Shown: piece after piece, positions 1-55,185 of the stretch
Numbering within the stretch: the first letter of the stretch is position 1
How the letters are laid out: every line of letters starts with the position of its first letter
Assembly (NCBI RefSeq): GCF_003353065.1
Contig: NZ_CP027806.1
Span: forward strand, 3,492,501-3,556,500
From: Cyclonatronum proteinivorum
Lineage (GTDB): Bacteria > Bacteroidota > Rhodothermia > Balneolales > Cyclonatronaceae
Direction: 5' to 3'
Length of the DNA stretch: 64,000 bases
Made by a program: the position numbers and the translations under genes
The notes under the pieces: generated by a model
What the model was told of the DNA's origin: nothing
Databases searched by the model: none
What the model saw: only the letters and a program-made list of their open reading frames with translations

Positions 1-2013
1 TTAGACAATTTTGGCCGGGATTTGACCAAGCTGGCCGAAGAATCCAAATTGGACCCCATCGTAGGACGCGAAAAAGAAATTGAGCGCCTAGCACAGGTTC
101 TGAGTCGCAGAAAGAAAAATAATCCTGTGCTCATCGGTGAACCCGGCGTGGGGAAAACAGCGATTGCCGAAGGGCTTGCGCTGCGTATTGTAGAGCGCAA
201 AGTATCCCGCGTGTTATATGAAAAGCGGGTTGTCGCCCTTGATCTTGCCGCGCTGGTCGCAGGCACGAAATACCGCGGTCAGTTCGAAGAGCGCATGAAA
301 GCGGTCATGACGGAGCTGGAAAAAGTAAGCAACGTCATCCTGTTTATTGATGAGCTTCATACCATTGTAGGTGCCGGCGGCGCTTCCGGGTCGCTCGACG
401 CTTCGAACATGCTCAAGCCTGCGCTCGCACGCGGCGACGTTCAGGCCATAGGCGCGACTACGCTCAATGAGTATCGTCAGTTTATTGAAAAAGACGGTGC
501 GCTCGAGCGTCGGTTCCAGAAAATTATGGTCGATCCCACTACGCCGGATGAAACCGCCATCATTCTGAATCAGATTAAAAACAAGTACGAGAAACATCAC
601 TCGGTTCGCTACACAGACGAAGCCATTGAAGCCTGTGTTAAGCTGACCGACCGTTACGTAACCGATCGCTTCCTGCCCGATAAGGCCATCGACGCCCTTG
701 ATGAAGCGGGTGCCCGCGTACACCTTGCCAATATCACCGTGCCGCAGCACATCATCGATCTCGAAGAGCAAATTGAAAAAGCTACGGAAGAGAAGAACAA
801 GATGGTAAAAAGCCAGCGTTTTGAAGACGCGGCACGCCTGCGGGATACCGAGAAAAAACTCATGGAAGAGCTCGAAAACGCCCAAAAAGACTGGGAAGTC
901 GAGTCCGAGAAAATTGTCTTCGATGTGAATGAAGAAGACGTCGCCAAGGTCGTTGGGATGATGACCGGCATTCCGGTTTCCAAAATCGCGCAGAGTGAAG
1001 GCACCAAGCTTCTCAAAATGCGCGAAGAGCTTACCCGGCAAGTTATAGGTCAGGACGAAGCCATTGTAAAGCTTTCCAAGGCCATACAGCGCACCCGCGC
1101 AGGTCTCAAAGATCCGGCCCGCCCCATTGGTTCGTTTATTTTCCTGGGACCTACAGGCGTCGGAAAGACGGAGCTTGCGAAAAGCCTTTCACGCTATCTG
1201 TTTGATGTGGATGACGCGCTTGTCCGCATTGACATGAGTGAGTACATGGAAAAGTTCTCTGTATCGAGACTTGTCGGAGCGCCCCCGGGCTACGTCGGTT
1301 ACGAAGAAGGCGGCATTCTCACAGAGAAGGTCCGGCGCAAGCCTTACTCGGTAGTACTGCTCGATGAAATTGAGAAAGCACACCCCGATGTATTCAACCT
1401 GCTGCTGCAGGTACTCGACGACGGAATCCTGACCGACTCTCTTGGCCGCAAAGTTGATTTCCGGAACACCATCATTATTATGACATCGAATATTGGTGCA
1501 CGGGATATCAAGAACCTGGGTCGCGGTATCGGTTTCAGCCCGACCGAATCTGCCTTTGACTACGCGAAGATGAAGTCCGTCATTCAAGACGCGCTCCGGA
1601 AGGTTTTCAATCCGGAATTCCTGAACCGCGTTGATGATGTGATTGTCTTCAAGCCGCTCGAAAAAGAAGACATTTTCAAAATTATCGACAATATGGCGGA
1701 CCTGCTCTTTAAGCGAATCCGCGATCTCAACTTCAATGTAGAGATTACCAAAGGTGCTAAGGATTTCCTGAGTGAGAAGGGCTTTGATCCGAAATACGGT
1801 GCCCGGCCCCTGAAGCGTGCCATCCAAAAGTACGTGGAAGATCCGCTCGCAGAAGAGCTGCTGTCCGCTCAAAAGGAAGAAGGTGCAACCATCCGGATTA
1901 AGATGAACGCTTCGCGCGATAATCTCACCTTTGAGTGGAAGAGCCCGGAACAGTCAGGTGGAAGCGAAAGCGAAACAACGGACGAAGAAGAGACAAGCTC
2001 CAAAGAAGCCTGA
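1..2013 (+). CDS. clpC: ATP-dependent Clp protease ATPase subunit ClpC (5' end missing)
   Basis: The reading frame is open from the first base, so the N-terminal part (the Clp_N repeat domain in this family) lies before the window. Visible parts in order: AAA+ domain 1 with Walker A GEPGVGKTA and Walker B VILFIDELHT, a middle region containing a UVR-like motif (around SQRFEDAARLRD), and AAA+ domain 2 with Walker A GPTGVGKTE and VVLLDEIEKAHPDV, then a Clp D2-small domain. The UVR-type linker points to ClpC rather than ClpA or ClpB. ClpC unfolds substrates and feeds them to ClpP in the cytoplasm. The C-terminus is an acidic Ser/Glu-rich tail. A strong terminator follows about 35 bp after the stop, so clpC is the last gene of its transcript. 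Confidence 0.95.
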   Translation, partial: LDNFGRDLTKLAEESKLDPIVGREKEIERLAQVLSRRKKNNPVLIGEPGVGKTAIAEGLALRIVERKVSRVLYEKRVVALDLAALVAGTKYRGQFEERMKAVMTELEKVSNVILFIDELHTIVGAGGASGSLDASNMLKPALARGDVQAIGATTLNEYRQFIEKDGALERRFQKIMVDPTTPDETAIILNQIKNKYEKHHSVRYTDEAIEACVKLTDRYVTDRFLPDKAIDALDEAGARVHLANITVPQHIIDLEEQIEKATEEKNKMVKSQRFEDAARLRDTEKKLMEELENAQKDWEVESEKIVFDVNEEDVAKVVGMMTGIPVSKIAQSEGTKLLKMREELTRQVIGQDEAIVKLSKAIQRTRAGLKDPARPIGSFIFLGPTGVGKTELAKSLSRYLFDVDDALVRIDMSEYMEKFSVSRLVGAPPGYVGYEEGGILTEKVRRKPYSVVLLDEIEKAHPDVFNLLLQVLDDGILTDSLGRKVDFRNTIIIMTSNIGARDIKNLGRGIGFSPTESAFDYAKMKSVIQDALRKVFNPEFLNRVDDVIVFKPLEKEDIFKIIDNMADLLFKRIRDLNFNVEITKGAKDFLSEKGFDPKYGARPLKRAIQKYVEDPLAEELLSAQKEEGATIRIKMNASRDNLTFEWKSPEQSGGSESETTDEEETSSKEA

Positions 2014-2044
2014 CATCCGCTTTCATTCCGTAACAGCGCTATAT

Positions 2045-2085
2045 GAAAAAAGCCTGAGCATGTTCATAGTGCTCAGGCTTTTTTT
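2045..2085 (+). terminator. Rho-independent terminator after clpC
   Basis: Perfect 9-bp stem GCCTGAGCA / TGCTCAGGC with a 9-nt loop, preceded by an A run and followed by a T run. The A and T runs could make it partly bidirectional. Confidence 0.9.
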
Positions 2086-2343
2086 GTTGAGAAAATTTAA
2101 AGGCTTAGGGATAACGCTCTTTTACATCAAAACCGGCACTTTAGGACAGTGCTTCGCGTTGCTATGTGCTCAATATTAACCTAAAATTATATTAGCGGTC
2201 ACTGTGTTGACTTAGCTGATAAAAGGGACTACCTTAAAATAGTCCCATTACCCTAAACGAATTATAAGAAAAATGGACGAAACGCATAGGTGCTTTACCG
2301 CACGCATGTTTTATCCTAATTGCAGATTTGTTCAGGACGCGCT
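2086..2343. other. Gene-free stretch between clpC and the MgtE-N-like gene
   Basis: No convincing coding frame. It holds one small inverted repeat, GGGACTA / TAGTCCC near 2227-2248, with only a weak T-rich flank on the minus strand. I see nothing else I can name. Confidence 0.5.
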
Positions 2344-2398
2344 GCATTTGATGACTTATTTCCGGACTTAAACCGGACGGTCTTAATACATCAAATGC
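2344..2398 (+). promoter_or_regulatory. Two-tier stem-loop leader upstream of the MgtE-N-like gene
   Basis: A perfect 10-bp outer inverted repeat, GCATTTGATG (2344-2353) with CATCAAATGC (2389-2398), encloses an inner hairpin TCCGG / CCGGA (2361-2377). The structure ends 37 nt before the ATG at 2436 and has no following T run, so it is not a simple terminator. An RNA leader or an operator are both possible. It does not match a riboswitch class I recognise. Confidence 0.45.
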
Positions 2399-2435
2399 GG
2401 CTCGTTAAACCTAAACAGCCAAATTTTGATGTACT

Positions 2436-2807
2436 ATGAACACCTATCCCTTTCCAAAAGGCGGAGCCGCTGAGCTGTATGATTTCAGCAACCTTTATGA
2501 GCTTCGCAATGCCTGCTACAATCTCGATACGGAGAAAATTATACACTACGCCAATTCAGCTGACACTGACGAGGTGATTTCGCTGCTTCTTGTACTTGAA
2601 GGCGAAAAAAAGCGCGCGCTTATCAACGGACTTTCCGTAGCGTCCATTCTCGATGTTGCAGAAGATCTTCATGTAAGTGAGCTCGCAAACTTGCTGGATG
2701 AACTTGATGAGCGCAAGCGAACCCAAATTATGGGTCAGCTTTCGGATCATACGCTTTACCGGCTGGGTTCCATGAAGAAGCTTTTTTTGAAATCCAGGAC
2801 GGAGTGA
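2436..2807 (+). CDS. Small MgtE N-terminal-domain-like protein
   Basis: 123 residues, no signal peptide and no membrane segment. From about residue 20 onward it consists of short amphipathic helices with the spacing of the MgtE_N (armadillo-like) domain, such as EVISLLLVLEGEKKRALI and ELANLLDELDERKRTQIM. This resembles the cytoplasmic N-domain of the full MgtE at 18945-20345, but without the CBS pair and the membrane domain. The function is unknown; a free-standing scaffold or regulator is possible. The gene is monocistronic, with its own structured leader and a terminator about 50 bp after the stop. The assignment rests on helix pattern, not on a database match. Confidence 0.55.
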   Translation: MNTYPFPKGGAAELYDFSNLYELRNACYNLDTEKIIHYANSADTDEVISLLLVLEGEKKRALINGLSVASILDVAEDLHVSELANLLDELDERKRTQIMGQLSDHTLYRLGSMKKLFLKSRTE

Positions 2808-41738: not shown

Positions 41739-41965
41739 AAAGCCCCAACGGGGCGGCATATCACAGCCCGGGGTGCTAACCCCGGGTTTGGCCGTGACCC
41801 GAAAATAGCAAGCCCTGCAAGGGCGGCATATCTCCGTAGCTTTGATTCTGCATGGTGCGCAGTTCCGGCATCGGAGGTATGTCGCCCCTTCAGGGCTCTA
41901 TTCCTGGCGCGTCAGGTTTCACAGGGTTGGAACCCCGTGCTGTGGTATGCCGCGCTTTCAGCGCT
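41739..41965. repeat. Cluster of four palindromic GGGGCGGCATA-type repeats
   Basis: Units i (41739-41793) and ii (41810-41836) read forward, for example AGCCCCAACGGGGCGGCATA then CCCGGGG / CCCCGGG. Units iii (41872-41898) and iv (41921-41965) are the same motif on the opposite strand (AGCCCTGAAGGGGCGACATA; AGCGCTGAAAGCGCGGCATA). Each unit contains one or two small hairpins, so the cluster as a whole is roughly inverted-symmetric. A degenerate fifth copy lies at 60757-60793. Confidence 0.75.
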
Positions 41966-42240: not shown

Positions 42241-43566
42241 TTAGCGGACGAGCGTCATGCGGCGGGTAGCGGAGAGGCTACCGGCCTGCAGGCGGTAGAG
42301 GTAGATGCCACTTGCAAGGGTGCCGGCGTCGAAGCGGAGCTGATGCGCGCCCGCTGTGCGGAATCCGGCATCGAGGACCGCAACGCGCTGTCCCATCAGA
42401 TTGAAGACTTCGAGGCGAACTTCCGCGGCTTCGGGCAGTTCGTAGCTGATGACCGTTGCCGGGTTGAAGGGGTTGGGATAATTTTGGTGCAGCCGGAAGC
42501 CCGAAGCGATTTCATCGCCGCCGACGGAGACGGGGCCGCCGCTCACGAACTGCACGAAATCCGGACCGATGCCTGCGGTGAAGCTCGTGAGTACATCCCC
42601 GTCGGTGCTGAGCACGGTGACGCTACCCGCCGAGCTGAAATCCGGCGCAGTGGTCGCAAAAATGCGGGGCTGATCGCCGTTCCAGAAGCGCATCCCGAAA
42701 TGGGCAAAATCCCTGAGCTTGTCATCGGCGAAGGTGAGCGTTTCCATGTCGAGCTTCATGATGCCATTGTTGAGCACATATAAAATGTTATCGGCTTCAT
42801 TGAGCTGAATGCGCTGCGGTTTGCCGGGGACATCCACGGTTGCAGTGACGGTGTCGGTAGCGGGGTCAATGATGCTGATTTTGCCGTCACTTTCGGGGAT
42901 GCCGAAGCTGCCGGTGCTCATGAGCCACACGCGGCCATCGCTGCCGGTGTGGAGGAAGCGCGGATTATCGTGCACATCGATCAGGGCGGTGCGGGTATCG
43001 GTCGCGATGTCGATCACGGCGACCTGCTGACCGTTGCCAAAATCGGTGAGGGCGACATAGGCTTTGCCGCCGCTCACGGCGATACCCTCGGGGTTGGGGC
43101 CGACTTCAATCGAGCCGGTAATTTCGTTGGTGACAAGGTCAAGCACCGAAACGGTTGTGCCGGTCAGGTTCGAAACGTAGGCCTTGGTGTCGCTTACCTG
43201 CTCAATCCACTGCGGACTGCTGCCGCCGAAATCATCCACGAAAATGCGTTTCATCGACGCAAAGGTTTCCGGATTCACGATTTCGATGGTGTCAGAATTG
43301 CTCACCAAAATATAGAGGAGGCCATTTATGAGGGCTGAATGCACCGCCACATCGCCGAGCGGGCGCCCGTTGACCTGCTGAAACACGTTTTGCTGCACCT
43401 GCCCGGTCGCGGGATTCCAGGACGTAACCGAGGCGTTGGCCTGCAGGAAGGCGCCCTGATTGAGTACATAGACTTTTTCAAGCTGCTGCGCGTGAAGGCC
43501 GGCTGCGAATACCAGCATCAATAGCACGGAGAGAGACGTAATTTTTTGCATCATACTGTTTTTCAT
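42241..43566 (-). CDS. Secreted beta-propeller with T9SS sorting domain, BtuG-like
   Basis: 441 residues. Signal peptide (ITSLSVLLMLVFAAGLHAQ), then YVTN/YncE-type beta-propeller blades (YVLNQGAFLQANASVTSWNP; GSIEVGPNPEGIAVSGGKAY; TVDVPGKPQRIQLNEADNIL) and a C-terminal type A sorting domain ([20 protein letters not shown] ... [11 protein letters not shown]). The opening 'VLNQG...NAS' pattern is that of the DUF5074/BtuG group, whose Bacteroides members are surface B12-binding propellers. It lies 154 bp after the TonB receptor under the same cobalamin riboswitch. I infer a surface B12 capture protein displayed through T9SS rather than as a lipoprotein. Confidence 0.82.
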   Translation of the reverse strand: MKNSMMQKITSLSVLLMLVFAAGLHAQQLEKVYVLNQGAFLQANASVTSWNPATGQVQQNVFQQVNGRPLGDVAVHSALINGLLYILVSNSDTIEIVNPETFASMKRIFVDDFGGSSPQWIEQVSDTKAYVSNLTGTTVSVLDLVTNEITGSIEVGPNPEGIAVSGGKAYVALTDFGNGQQVAVIDIATDTRTALIDVHDNPRFLHTGSDGRVWLMSTGSFGIPESDGKISIIDPATDTVTATVDVPGKPQRIQLNEADNILYVLNNGIMKLDMETLTFADDKLRDFAHFGMRFWNGDQPRIFATTAPDFSSAGSVTVLSTDGDVLTSFTAGIGPDFVQFVSGGPVSVGGDEIASGFRLHQNYPNPFNPATVISYELPEAAEVRLEVFNLMGQRVAVLDAGFRTAGAHQLRFDAGTLASGIYLYRLQAGSLSATRRMTLVR

Positions 43567-43720
43567 GGGTTTGAATTTTATCGATGGATGGCATCCGGGC
43601 GAAATCCGGCTGCCGTATTTGATTGAGGTTTTCGTTGGAGGATGTTTCGGATTGGGGAATGAGTGAGGTGCTGCAGCCTGCTTCTTACTGTGGAATTAGC
43701 GACGGAAGGGCGCAGGGCAA

Positions 43721-45694
43721 TCAGTACAAAAAGCCGATACGGAGGGAGAGCGTCTGATAGCGGGGCGGCAGCGGGTAGCGGGAGATGAATTCGTGCTGAC
43801 CGTCGGTGAGGTTGTGAAGCGTCCAGGCGAGGCGGAGTTGGGTGCCGCGGAAGCGGCCTTCGTAGCCGAGCTGCAGGTTCATGTCGGTGAAGGCGCTGAG
43901 GGGATCAATCGGACTGCTGTGATCGGCGGTCGTGAATCGGCTGCCCGCGTGCTGCAGGCTGAAATTTGCAAAAGCGCCAAGTTTGCGGATCCCCGCACCG
44001 GCTTTCCAGCTCCATTCGGGCACGTAGGTGAGCTGACGATCAACCCGGCGGAGCTGCCCTTCGACCGTTTCTTCGCGCGGAATCGTGGCACGGGTTCGGG
44101 CAAGGGCCGCATCCATCGAAAATCCCCAGCCGCGCCAGTCGTAGCTTAGGGAGAGGTCGGCTTCGACGCCCCGGCTGTCGATTTCGAACAGATTCACCGG
44201 CGACCAAATCCCGCCGGCACCGGGCAGCCAGCGGATGCCGTTTTCGAACCAGATCCGGTACAGCGTTACGCCCGCCCGCGTTTGGAGTTCGCCGAGATTC
44301 CGCGCCCAGGCCGCTCCGGCTTCAAGACTGAGGCTTTCCTCCGGCTTCAAGTCCGGATTGCCGCCCTGCCCCCAGAACAAATCGTTGAGTCCGGGCGGAT
44401 TGAAATTCCGGGCGATTTGCCCCCGCAGGTACAGGCCGTCGAGCGGCGTGCGCCAGTTGGCGCCGAACGAGCCGGTGAAGGCCTGACCAAAGTCGGAGTA
44501 GGTGAGCACCCGCAGCACGGGGTAGATGGCAAGAGTTTGTGTGGGACGCACCTCTGCCTGCACAAAAGCGGAGAGCTGCTGCCGGGTTTCGGTGCCGCTG
44601 TAGTTGTTGGTTTCGACGCTCAGATGACCCGCATCGAGCCCGCCGGATAAAAAAAGACGCGTCGAGAGTTCCTGTCGGTACACGAGCCGCGCCTGATGCC
44701 GGCGGAGGTCGCTTGTGCTTTCGATGCGCGCGGGCACGTCGGTGTAGTCGAGGGCGTACCATTCGTGAAAACTGCTGAGCTGCCAGAGCCCGCGGCCCTG
44801 CTGCCGCGCGAGCAGGTTGGTCCAGCGGGTAAAACGGTCGTCCTGCACGGCGCGCGGATTTCGGATGGCCGAGGAGCCCGCGATGTGATGCTCCGCTGCG
44901 CCCAGCCACAGGCTGCCGTCGTAGTGCCAGCTGCCCTGCGTGAAGCCTGCATTCAGTAAGGCGTGCCGGTTCTGAAACTGATTGTTGCGGCGGACTTCCT
45001 CCCGCTGCCGGATGTCGTCGAAATACGGGTAGTTGTTCATGGCCTGCGCCCCGCTCAGGTGCAGCGAAGCCCGGAAGACAGGTCCGCGGAAGCCGGTTTG
45101 AAGCCCGAACTGCCGTTGCCCCCAGGCGCCGGTTTGCAGAGAGAAGGCCGTCTCATTTTCCGGCTGCGGACTATCGAACAGCACTGCCCCTGCCGTGCTG
45201 CCTTCCCCGAAACTCGCACTGCTGTTGCCGGTCGCGACGCGAATATTCGAGGCGAAGCCGGCGGGAATCAGGTTGTAATCGGTCTCGCCCAGCATGGCGT
45301 GATTGATGCCGAAGCCGTTCCACATCAGCGAGGTCTGCCGCGCCCCGAAGCCGCGTGCCGAAACCGACTGAATGCCGCCAAGACCGTAGGCACGGATCAT
45401 CACCGGCGTGTGGAAACGAAGCACATCCCCCAGACTCGCTGCCGCCGAAGCCGCTGCTGCATCCGCGCGAACGAGGCTCACCTCCACCGGCAGACGTTCC
45501 GGCGCAACCGGCATACGCGAAGCTTCTATATAGATTTGCTCGAGCCGCAGCCGCAGCGTATCCGGCTGCGCGGTTTGATTTAAAGCATACACAAGTGCCG
45601 GAAAAACAGCAAGCTGTAAAATCACAAAAAAGCCCACAACGAGCCAGAAACAAAATGCACCCCTGCCCGGAGTGCTGCAAAAAAAGGAAGACAT
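43721..45694 (-). CDS. btuB: TonB-dependent receptor, BtuB-like, riboswitch-controlled
   Basis: 657 residues. N-terminal hydrophobic signal (FWLVVGFFVILQLAVFPALV), possible TonB box (EQIYIEASRM), plug domain (GDVLRFHTPVMIRAYGLGGI; SVSARGFGARQTSLMWNGFG; SSASFGEGSTAGAVLFDSPQ), then a 22-strand-type barrel ending in RYQTLSLRIGFLY with the C-terminal aromatic. The cobalamin riboswitch 50 nt upstream indicates that it imports B12 or another corrinoid across the outer membrane. It is co-transcribed with the BtuG-like propeller. No BtuFCD genes are in the window. Confidence 0.88.
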   Translation of the reverse strand: MSSFFCSTPGRGAFCFWLVVGFFVILQLAVFPALVYALNQTAQPDTLRLRLEQIYIEASRMPVAPERLPVEVSLVRADAAAASAAASLGDVLRFHTPVMIRAYGLGGIQSVSARGFGARQTSLMWNGFGINHAMLGETDYNLIPAGFASNIRVATGNSSASFGEGSTAGAVLFDSPQPENETAFSLQTGAWGQRQFGLQTGFRGPVFRASLHLSGAQAMNNYPYFDDIRQREEVRRNNQFQNRHALLNAGFTQGSWHYDGSLWLGAAEHHIAGSSAIRNPRAVQDDRFTRWTNLLARQQGRGLWQLSSFHEWYALDYTDVPARIESTSDLRRHQARLVYRQELSTRLFLSGGLDAGHLSVETNNYSGTETRQQLSAFVQAEVRPTQTLAIYPVLRVLTYSDFGQAFTGSFGANWRTPLDGLYLRGQIARNFNPPGLNDLFWGQGGNPDLKPEESLSLEAGAAWARNLGELQTRAGVTLYRIWFENGIRWLPGAGGIWSPVNLFEIDSRGVEADLSLSYDWRGWGFSMDAALARTRATIPREETVEGQLRRVDRQLTYVPEWSWKAGAGIRKLGAFANFSLQHAGSRFTTADHSSPIDPLSAFTDMNLQLGYEGRFRGTQLRLAWTLHNLTDGQHEFISRYPLPPRYQTLSLRIGFLY

Positions 45695-45744
45695 ATAAAT
45701 GAGCTACTGAAACTTTTACCCGAAGTTTACAGCGTCGGAACATC

Positions 45745-45950
45745 AAGGCAGGTCTCCTGACTTGTCCGTTAAGCGTCTGCCGCCTTCCCATTTCTTTGGG
45801 GCTCGAAACAGTGGCGTTGTGGCAGCCGCGAAAATGCGGGCGAAGGTTAAGATTCAGACTTCACCCCGCGTCGGACTTACAGTTGCGGGTACAGCTCCCG
45901 ATTTTCACGGGATTCCCTTTTAATCATCCAAAGGATGAACCAGGTTGTTC
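45745..45950 (-). ncRNA. Cobalamin riboswitch
   Basis: On the minus strand: the conserved start AAAGGGAATCCCGTGAAAAT, CGGGAGCTGTACCCGCAACT (core) with GTAAGTCCGA, the GCCACTG box, GGGAAGGCGGCAGACG, and the B12 box CAGGAGACCTGCC ending near 45748. The order and spacing are those of the Rfam cobalamin class. It is about 50 nt before the receptor start, so it probably turns the uptake pair off when B12 is plentiful. Confidence 0.96.
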
Positions 45951-46000
45951 GTATTCTGAAGTGCCTAAAGTACGCCTTTTTCAGGACGCATCACAACACC

Positions 46001-51262: not shown

Positions 51263-54200
51263 TTATTTCACCAGCATCATTTTGCGGGTTTGTACAAAGG
51301 TCCCTGCCTGCAGCCTGTAGATATACATGCCGCTGGAGAGGGCACCGGCGTCGAAGCTGACGCTGTGGCGGCCTGCGGTTTGCTGGCCGCTGACCAGTAC
51401 TGCGACCCGCTGACCCATCAGGTTGTACACTTCGAGGCGGACTTCAGCGGCCTCGGGCAGGGCGTAGCTGATGAGGGTGGTCGGGTTGAAGGGGTTGGGG
51501 TAGTTTTGGTTGAGGGTGAATTCCGTCGGCAAATCATCGCGGCCGATATCGGTAGTGATGATGGTATCGAATACGAAAGCTTCTGACCATGGCCCTACAC
51601 GGTCGCTGTTTTCGCCACGCACGCGCCAGAAGTAGGTGCTGCTGCCTTGCAGGCCGCTGACAAACTGCTGGGTGTTGGTGATAGCGGTTACGTCAACGGC
51701 GAGTTCTTCGAAGGCCTCGTCGAGGGCAATCTGCAGGTCGTAGGTCTCCGCGTTGGCGGCGGCCTGCCAGTTGAAGACGCCAAAGAGCTGAACATCCGTC
51801 GAATTGTTGGCCGGGAAGAGTTTCTGCACTGCTGAAGGCTCGGCTTTGGCCGTGGTAAAGCTCCAAAGTTCACTCCACTCCCCTTCACCCGCAATGTTAA
51901 AGCCTTTCACCTGCCAGAAGTAGGTGGTTTCGGGCTGCAGGTCTTCGACCGTGATAAAGGTTTCTTCCGTCGTTGACTCAAAAACGGTTTCGGCCAGCTC
52001 ATCATCGGTGGAAATCCGGAACATGTAGCTTTCCGCATTTGCTTCAGCTTCCCACTCAAACATAATATCCTCAAAAACGGCAGATGCTTCATTGACAGGC
52101 GCGGTAAGCGCGATGGCTTCCGGCAGCGCTTCAACAATAACAAGGCTTACCGGAATGGTGAGGGTCTCGTTTTCCGGATCATTCGTTTCAATATTGATAT
52201 TGGCGCTGTAAGATCCGGCAGGGACGCCTTCAATAGAGAACTGAACCGTCACTTCCTGCGTGTCCTCGTGCTGCAAAATACCGGCCTGCGGATCCGTTGA
52301 GAGCCAGCCCATGGCCGCTTCATCTACGGATATGCTGTATTCGAGCGGCTCAAGTCCGCGGTTGAAAAACGAAAAGCTCGTGTCTTCGGGGTTTTCATCA
52401 CGTACTGTTGCAAAACTCATGCTGCCTGCGGTAAGTACAATGCGCGGGTCTTCAATCACGATATCCATCTCCAGGGTTACCGGAATCTGGAAGAGCGGAT
52501 TTTCAGGATCGTTGGTAGCGATGGAAATGAGCGCGTTATATACGCCTTCCGGCATGATACCCGAAGCGGTAAGGGTGATTTGCTCAGAACCGAAACCATC
52601 AACCCGACCGGCACTGCTGCTTACGTTCAGCCAGCCGTCGTTGCCGCTGAAGCGCACATTGTCGAAGAATCCGGATTCGCCATCATTGTTGTTGTTGCTG
52701 AGGAATACCGCCTGCTCAACCGTAGTGGCCGACCAGAAGCTTCCCGTATGAATCACTTCGCCATCAATAATGTAGCGGATTTCATTGGCCTCGGTATCGA
52801 TTTCCTGGGCGAAGGCATACCACACACCCGGCTCAAAAGTGCCCACGTTGATGGTTGAGTTCCCGCCGGTAAAGACCTGAAGGTTTCCGTTTGAAGCAAA
52901 GCGGAAGCGGGTCGTGATACTGCCGAGAGATGGTGCCTGCAGGGCGATATCATAGCTTGCCCCGCCCAGCTCTTCTACAAACACATCCGTTTCCAATGTG
53001 TAGAATTTGCTTCCGGTAGGAATCAGCGGGGTCCGCACGCCTATATTGGTGTTGCCGCCCGTACCTTCCTGACGGGCAATTTCCAGCGCCCAGTCGCCGT
53101 CGCTGGCGCGTACATCAGAAATGACCGGCTGCGTGCTGCTTGCATTGAGTGTACTCCAACCCAGCTGATTTCCGATAAACCCGGGCTCAAATCCTTCTTC
53201 CGGCTCGAAAGAAGCTACGACTTCATCGGACTGAAGGCCTGCCGCATCCCAAAAATTCTGATCCACAAAAGCCTCCGCACCCGGAGCGATTGGCAAACCA
53301 GCAAGTTCGGCTGTTCCCTCGCCGTACGCGACGCCAATCGTATAGTTGAGCGGGCCTTCAGCATCATTCAGGATATCAATTACTTCAGTAGCGACTTCGC
53401 CCTCATTCAGGCTGAATACAAAACCGCTTGTAGGGGTCACACTCGCCGATGGCGGTCCGAGTAAGCTGAGTTCAAGCGCCTGCGCCGCGTTAATGCGTCC
53501 GCCGGCGATGGTGTTGTCCACAAATGCAGGAACAGGATCAACGCTGTTCATAATCCAGGAGCGGAGCTCGGAAGGTGTTGCGTCCGGATTAGCCGCTTTC
53601 AGCAGGGCTGCAACACCGGCAGCATGCGGGCTTGCCATGGAAGTTCCGGAAAGGGAAGCATAGCCGCTGGCATTGATGTAAGTGCTGAAAATGGCAGAAC
53701 CGGGCGCCGCGACATGCACCGTATTGGCACCAAAGTTCGAGAAGCCGCTGCGCTGATCGTTACGGTCGGAGCTCGCAACCGCCATTACATTGGGAAGGTT
53801 GTACCCGGCAGGGTAGAAGTTCTGATTGTCGTTGTTGGTACCGTTGTTACCGGCAGCGGCAATCACGAAGTGACCGGCCTGACCGGCAGCCTGAATGGCG
53901 TTGAAGCCCGCCTGAGAGAATCCGGGGCCGCCCCAGCTGTGATTGGAGATCGTTGCGCCGTTCTCAACCGCATATTGTAGTCCCTGAATCATAGCCGCAC
54001 CGTTACAGGTGTTGGCCCCGTTGAGACCGCAAATTTTAATATTCATAAGGGTCACATCCCAGTTTACCCCTACTACACCCACGCCGTTGTTGCCAACCGC
54101 GCCAATGGTGCCCGCTACGTGCGTGCCATGACCGTTCAGATCGTTGGGGGTATCCCCCAGAAAACTCTGGCCTACATTGCCGTCTGCGTCAGTCCACAGG

Positions 54201-54778
54201 TTATCAAGCAGATCGGGATGGTTGTCACGAATACCGGAGTCGAAAACAGCCACAATCACATCAAGTGAGCCGGTTGTGTATTCCCAGGCATCGAGGGCGC
54301 TGATGTCAGCACCGGCTGTGCCGCCGCTTTGACCCGTATTGTTGAGTCCCCACAGCTGACCAAAAGAAGGATCGTTGGGGATGGTCTGCAGGCTTTCGAA
54401 AACTTCGTCGAAGCTGTAATCACGGATTACATCGGGAATGCGGTACACAAAGTTGGGCTCGGCGTATACCACATCAGCGCGGCTGTTCAGCATGTCGAGC
54501 GCCTGTTGAACCGTTCCGTTGCGGAATTCCCACAATTCGGCATCAATAAAAGTAAGCGGCGTAACCGCTTCAACGGCCAAAGATTCCTGCAGCATGGCAT
54601 AATCTTCCGCTGAAAGCAAGCCCGGTACAAACTCTACAACAAGCTGACCGTCCATAAATTCCACAAGCCCTGTGCCTGCGATTTCCTCATGTAGTATTTC
54701 CTGGGCTTTCACCGTGTATACACCCAGTATACATACCAAAAACAGCGCCATAAGCGCTGATAGTTTTTTGTACTTCAT
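51263..54778 (-). CDS. Secreted subtilisin-family (S8) protease with T9SS sorting domain
   Basis: 1171 residues with the start at [10 protein letters not shown] (signal peptide [18 protein letters not shown]); a start 26 codons earlier is not needed. A propeptide ([19 protein letters not shown]...) is followed by the S8 domain with Asp in [15 protein letters not shown] (near 178), His in [14 protein letters not shown] (near 219) and Ser in [18 protein letters not shown] (near 378). Then come a LamG-like jelly roll (about 520-680), two Ig-like repeats, two fibronectin-III domains and a type A sorting domain ([20 protein letters not shown]). It should be an extracellular or cell-surface endopeptidase exported by Sec and T9SS. 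Its sorting-domain codons closely resemble those at 60150-60401. Confidence 0.93.
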
Positions 54779-55185
54779 TATAAATAGGCTGATTCTGTTC
54801 GTTAGTAAGATTGAAAAGCGCGGTGAGCCAGGGGCATTGTCAAACCGGCACCCCATGATAACAAATATTACCGGTTAAGGTTTTCCGCTTTCATTTTTTC
54901 ACACTTTTGTTAGCAAAGCACATGCTCGTTAAATACTTCCTTGTGAAGCTTACGTTACAATCGACCTCAGCCTGATAAAAAGCGCGCTTGGTAACACTCA
55001 ACTCCGCACAACGAAAAAGCGATAAATATATATTTTTTATTGATTTAATTTATCTCACAAAAGGCAGGTCGGTAATGATGTAAAATTTCAAACCATTAAA
55101 ACTGCGCATTCTCCCTTTAGCACGGTCATCCCGCTGCCCGTCACACGTAACCCAGCAAATAAAATCCCTGATCAGCGGCGCAGGC
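54779..55185. other. 407-bp gene-free region between the GDPD and subtilisin genes
   Basis: AT-rich near 55020-55060. It presumably holds the subtilisin promoter and the 3' end of the GDPD transcript. I see no hairpin with a T run and no repeat copy. Confidence 0.5.

Follow-up and report, generated by a model that had tools for sequence, protein, structure and literature searches.

The 64,000-nt stretch of contig NZ_CP027806.1 from the soda-lake-type bacterium Cyclonatronum proteinivorum analysed here (hereafter the window, to whose positions all coordinates refer) carries a cobalamin riboswitch followed by the genes of a BtuB-type TonB-dependent receptor and of a BtuG-type β-propeller protein. 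It encodes a BtuBG system in which the lid anchor is of another kind, as it is in several branches of the class: the propeller, which is a lipoprotein in Bacteroides, bears here the C-terminal sorting domain of the type IX secretion system (T9SS).

Organization of the locus

The riboswitch was matched over the full RF00174 model and over its gathering score, and it is the only cobalamin riboswitch in the whole 4.29 Mb genome, which is assembled as a single contig. A sequence-only reading of the window had placed it at 45745-45950, slightly short of its limits in Table 1, and had given the order riboswitch, TonB receptor and DUF5074-like propeller; every element that it named is present. No promoter or terminator was predicted on the gene strand within the gap separating the two genes, which abut or overlap in many relatives. 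Riboswitch, receptor and propeller probably make up a two-gene unit for the uptake of vitamin B12.

Table 1. Features of the btuB-btuG locus in the window, in the direction of transcription (AF2, AlphaFold2; pLDDT, predicted local distance difference test; aa, amino acids)
Feature	Position	Strand	Basis and remarks
Cobalamin riboswitch aptamer, full length	45730-45959	-	Rfam RF00174, 96.8 bits, E 7e-23, gathering score 31.5
BtuB-type TonB-dependent receptor, 657 aa	43721-45694	-	Pfam Plug and barrel
Receptor extracellular loop EL8, residues 485-501	44192-44242	-	NGIRWLPGAGGIWSPVN; alignment; role from PMC10404256
Intergenic gap, 154 nt	43567-43720	-	Between receptor and propeller genes
BtuG-type propeller protein with T9SS tail, 441 aa (with stop)	42241-43566	-	DUF5074, TIGR04183, fold
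Sec/signal-peptidase-I leader, residues 1-26, without lipobox Cys	43489-43566	-	Cleavage between AHA and QQ, by eye
Seven-bladed propeller domain, residues 28-342	42541-43485	-	AF2 pLDDT ~96; Z 38-41 to BtuG1/2/3
Flexible C-terminal linker, residues 343-357	42496-42540	-	pLDDT <50 at residues 345-354
T9SS type A C-terminal sorting domain	42244-42495	-	TIGR04183 41-43 bits, cut-off 23; β strands predicted

The propeller protein

In Pfam the propeller matches DUF5074 (E 5.6e-15) and also YNCE. When it was compared by sequence with the PDB, the full-length matches were the entries of BtuG1, BtuG2 and BtuG3, and the profile of a 43-member propeller family scored BtuG2 with E 4e-97 versus 1e-14 for YncE. 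The eleven best VIA-align matches of the AF2 model of the propeller were all BtuG (Z 38-41), followed by an archaeal S-layer propeller (Z 32.5) and then by the B12-binding propeller BtuK1 (Z 30.7). The margins of profile (4e-97 versus 1e-14) and of fold (38-41 versus 32.5) rule out a generic YncE/YVTN propeller. The protein is a true BtuG relative, with an identity to BtuG2 of about 26%, and the structural match on which that proposal had been made to depend was found with the predicted model.

The further claim that the propeller lacks a lipobox, has a T9SS sorting domain and takes the type IX route agrees with what was found. The leader, which reads MKNSMMQKITSLSVLLMLVFAAGLHA and is followed by QQ after a cleavage site judged by eye, contains no Cys at all, whereas Por_Secre_tail and TIGR04183 (two libraries) cover residues 363-437 above their curated cut-offs, and the genome encodes the T9SS machinery. 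The lipobox and Cys described for 114 BtuG homologues (PMC6143338) are thus missing, with the T9SS tail in their place, and the protein is accordingly filed as a BtuG-type variant and not as a canonical BtuG lipoprotein.

The ligand-pocket aromatics named for BtuG2 include Trp194, Tyr316 and Tyr335 (PMC10404256), and the pocket comparison covered these three together with Tyr239 and Trp272. In the alignment, Trp194, Tyr316 and Tyr335 correspond to Phe176, Phe290 and Phe310 of the window propeller, which is moreover strongly acidic (isoelectric point 4.3), as expected for a negatively charged face that receives B12. The Phe residues of the pocket and the acidity support, without proving, corrinoid binding by the propeller.

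The receptor and loop EL8

The best PDB sequence matches of the receptor were the BtuB2, BtuB3 and BtuB1 chains of the Bacteroides BtuBG complexes, with profile E values of 8e-150 for BtuB2/BtuB3, 3e-86 for BtuB1 and 1e-44 for E. coli BtuB. The best folds for its AF2 model (pLDDT 88.6) were 8p98, 8p97 and 8bmx, and the predicted barrel, like the profile, prefers the B. thetaiotaomicron BtuBs over that of E. coli. By sequence profile and predicted structure alike, the receptor and the propeller fall with the BtuB-BtuG pairs of Bacteroides, and other barrels and propellers score clearly lower.

The lid mechanism of BtuBG has been shown (Abellon-Ruiz et al. 2023, PMC10404256). In Bacteroides, loop EL8 of BtuB enters the BtuG pocket and pushes B12 off the lid, being required in B. 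thetaiotaomicron for growth on B12; its ligand-contact aromatic is Tyr538 in BtuB3, a Phe in BtuB2 and a Trp in BtuB1 (PMC10404256). Trp497 of the window receptor aligns with Tyr538. In an alignment-based comparison of 77 BtuBs of the class that have a BtuG neighbour with eight that lack one under the same type of riboswitch, Trp489 of EL8 was present in all 77 of the former versus none of the latter, and the loop typically had 17 residues in the lid-partnered receptors versus mostly 12-13 in the others. Position 497 was aromatic in 70 of the 77. The EL8 of the window receptor, with its aromatic, is that of a lid-partnered BtuB as far as this sequence feature goes. The W-x-P motif of the loop could serve in this class as a marker separating lid-partnered from lidless BtuBs, its loss being a possible sign of a lidless receptor.

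The BtuBs found without BtuG under a cobalamin riboswitch (L246-L251, L254 and L255) constitute a distinct, more divergent subfamily without the W-x-P of EL8, scoring 142-177 bits in the BtuB profile as compared with ~600-800 for many lid-partnered receptors of the class. At L254 the riboswitch and BtuB are followed by an open reading frame of 1218 aa resembling NrdJ. Within family f2, five loci forming part of the tail-bearing clade (L091, L092, L096, L101 and L127) have Ser at position 497, with Trp489 and loop length kept, and the hand-over of the ligand may differ there.

Conservation in relatives

Among 245 genomes of the class, a propeller match was obtained in 144 and a cobalamin riboswitch in 217. 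Eighty class loci, chosen by their propeller, were taken for comparison (L068 being the riboswitch contig of a split locus). BtuB adjoins the propeller in all those that are not cut by a contig end, and the riboswitch precedes this neighbouring BtuB in 72 of the 72 loci with sufficient contig, the six others of 78 being contig-cut. Since the 72 testable loci were picked by propeller alone and all carry riboswitch and BtuB, the association is not due to chance. Where relatives in the genome scan, made with an alignment of closer family members, bear a name, they belong to Balneolales/Balneolia and are mostly metagenome bins; several stem from sediment series with names that point to soda lakes as a probable habitat.

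BtuG relatives beside BtuB were also found across the phylum, among others in Kryptonia, Hymenobacter, Pontibacter and Bacteroidales, and almost all of them have a lipobox; three tail-bearing forms (L230-L232) belong to other classes of the phylum.

Some loci depart from the common layout. In genera g7 and g15 (L093, L097, L106, L107, L109, L111, L123 and L126) a second cobalamin riboswitch lies ~3.6-7.4 kb upstream of that of BtuB-BtuG, and in L252 and L253 a riboswitch precedes genes that by eye resemble B12-independent MetE and ribonucleotide reductase subunits. Two lipobox-bearing BtuG relatives (L234 and L235) have ~290-316 extra C-terminal aa, reminiscent of BtuG1 and its BtuH-like domain, and the lipoprotein BtuG of L114 (genome G124) has an additional domain of ~80-100 residues between lipobox and propeller. 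Directly downstream of the T9SS-form BtuG of L133 there is a second, weaker propeller relative (1424-2476, minus strand).

Alternation of the lid anchor within the class

The anchor was surveyed in 80 class propellers, including that of the window, with a few assignments corrected by eye. Forty-four have a lipobox and no tail, 34 have a tail and no lipobox, and none has both; the remaining two are a frameshifted tail (L119) and a sequence cut by a contig end (L102). In the lipobox forms the protein stops at most a few residues beyond the propeller, and the tail forms combine a signal-peptidase-I leader with a tail of ~100 residues. TIGR04183 matched all 37 tails scanned, the three from outside the class included. 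Four apparent exceptions to this exclusivity were dismissed, the lipobox matches of L121 and L122 being false ones upstream of the start Met, and L082 and L114 proving to be lipoproteins on inspection.

In the lipoprotein forms 17-29 residues (mostly 17-24) lie between the Cys and the first conserved Asn of the propeller, a stretch of which the tail forms, as judged by eye, keep ~9; these have instead 20-24 residues (33 in one case) between the end of the propeller and the conserved PNP of the tail. Read from these sequences, a linker of similar length has changed ends, from N-terminal to C-terminal.

The propeller tree requires the anchor label to change five times, with at least two of these changes forced by well-supported (starred) branches, and the two forms alternate within the class and even within family f2. 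The sequence-only reading had supposed a different attachment route outside the Bacteroidia: the exchange of lipobox for T9SS tail stands, but the class boundary is too simple a frame, given this alternation and the three T9SS forms of other classes. Because SprA was above cut-off in 76 of the 77 surveyed genomes, whichever the anchor form, the choice of anchor does not depend on whether T9SS is available, and an explanation of the T9SS form by which route is available is ruled out as regards T9SS. That the lid bears a T9SS tail in several separate lineages, and always in replacement of the lipobox, suggests that selection preserves a lid on the pore and not its way of anchoring.

T9SS and vitamin B12 use in the host

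The genome encodes SprA (1541 bits), PorU (955 bits) and PorV (286 bits), the PorV gene adjoining that of PorU, and 91 proteins with T9SS tails. The propeller has the features of type A cargo, namely TIGR04183 above cut-off and a Sec leader, in a host that possesses SprA, PorU and PorV. One of the 91 tails, which closely resembles the propeller's own, belongs to a subtilisin-like protein of 1197 aa encoded in the window (51263-54856, minus strand).

The B12-dependent enzymes MetH and NrdJ are encoded in the genome, and there was no convincing match to the corrin-ring enzyme CobJ, the only corrin-synthesis gene searched. The presence of MetH and NrdJ together with the absence of CobJ indicates a cell that needs B12 and probably imports it; with CobJ as the sole corrin-ring gene tested, B12 auxotrophy is likely.

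Proposed mode of action and alternatives

With a lid devoid of lipid anchor and provided with a T9SS tag, the machine known from Bacteroides appears to be retained here with its lid attached to the surface in another way. The explanation favoured here, with a probability of roughly 0.7, is that the propeller is still the B12 lid but is now tethered by way of T9SS. Low intracellular cobalamin would allow the riboswitch to permit expression of receptor and propeller, which B12 would repress. The latter would cross the inner membrane by Sec and the outer membrane by T9SS (SprA/PorV), and its tail would be removed by PorU. Retained on the cell surface, where type A cargo would be attached to lipopolysaccharide once its tail is gone, it would sit as a lid on BtuB and catch corrinoids on its acidic face, with very high affinity if it behaves like BtuG; EL8 would displace them from there into the receptor, as in Bacteroides. 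The tether would thereby have shifted from the N-terminal lipid used in Bacteroides to the C-terminal linker that precedes the T9SS tail.

Several points weigh against this explanation. The pocket is not wholly kept, BtuG2 Trp272 corresponding to Lys249 in the window propeller, and the blade-5 loop with BtuG2 Tyr239 aligns ambiguously. Seven tail-bearing pairs are without the EL8 aromatic at position 497, six of them having Ser, and tail-bearing G177 (a draft genome, 91% complete) yielded no match to SprA above cut-off. B12 import is deduced from a single corrin-synthesis marker (CobJ). Finally, some T9SS cargo in other bacteria is released and not attached. This last point opens the way to an alternative in which the propeller is a BtuG homologue released by T9SS as a soluble scavenger of corrinoids, a "corrinophore", which docks, loaded, on BtuB, much as haemophores carry haem back to their receptor. 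T9SS cargo can indeed be soluble, removal of the tail by PorU is expected, the mature N-terminus of the propeller has no tether, and the receptor retains EL8, which would free a docked lid of its ligand. Yet lipoproteins occupy this position in 44 close relatives, the tail is of the TIGR04183 type A, which attaches proteins to the surface in Porphyromonas gingivalis, and PorV and PorU are encoded in the genome, so that a released carrier is considered unlikely. The broader proposition that the lids of TonB-dependent nutrient receptors can switch between lipoprotein export and T9SS, the B12 lid of T9SS lineages being a diffusible corrinoid carrier, is considered equally unlikely.

It could also be argued, from the identity of only ~26% to BtuG2 and the Lys at the place of Trp272, that the protein is a YncE-like propeller in a B12 operon which has lost corrinoid binding or serves the receptor with some other ligand. 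Profile and structure scores nevertheless set the family apart from YncE, the linkage to the riboswitch holds in all testable relatives, pocket aromatics are kept as Phe and the EL8 of the partner is kept, all of which make this quite improbable. That the T9SS tail is an accident of gene model or assembly, and the protein really a lipoprotein, is barely conceivable: no point in its favour was found, the gene is one open frame in a single-contig genome, and 33 further relatives of the class, from other assemblies, share the architecture, none with a lipobox.

Relation to known systems and significance

The propeller and receptor of the window resemble the B. thetaiotaomicron pairs BtuB2-BtuG2 and BtuB3-BtuG3 in the control by a riboswitch, the pairing of receptor and propeller, the fold (Z ~40), the EL8 aromatic, an aromatic residue at three of the five pocket positions compared and the acidity of the propeller. 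They differ from them in the signals borne by the lid (a signal-peptidase-I leader together with a T9SS tail at the C-terminus, as opposed to the N-terminal lipid-modified Cys of BtuG2 and BtuG3), in their distance (~26% identity, Trp272 not kept), and in that the locus is a single two-gene unit without further accessory lipoproteins. With BtuB1-BtuG1 they share the pair, the fold and a Trp at the EL8 contact position, whereas the C-terminal extension is a B12-binding, BtuH-like one in BtuG1 and a T9SS tail in the window propeller. E. coli BtuB is likewise a riboswitch-controlled, TonB-dependent cobalamin receptor, but one without a lid, and BtuK1 (9s6c), also a B12-binding propeller, is more distant (Z 30.7, 15% identity). 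As to export, the likeness is to T9SS type A cargo of Porphyromonas gingivalis and Flavobacterium, with the TIGR04183 tail and a host equipped with SprA, PorU and PorV.

To our knowledge, no BtuG-type transporter lid has been described as T9SS cargo, and full-text literature searches, whose coverage excluded subscription papers, returned no report linking BtuG with T9SS or with Rhodothermota/Balneola. Among 313 gut strains, BtuG was exclusive to Bacteroidetes, its members being described as lipoproteins (Wexler et al. 2018, PMC6143338). The natural pairs of close relatives with either anchor make it possible to test whether the pedal-bin motion of the lid depends on a lipid hinge at the N-terminus, or indeed on being tethered in any way. 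The findings also suggest a function for many proteins presently named only "T9SS sorting domain" or "YncE".

Other elements of the window

The non-coding DNA downstream of the propeller gene contains two matches to the Acido-Lenti-1 RNA (cut-off 37 bits), one on each strand: 41741-41786 on the minus strand (45.6 bits) and 41920-41965 on the plus strand (47.4 bits).

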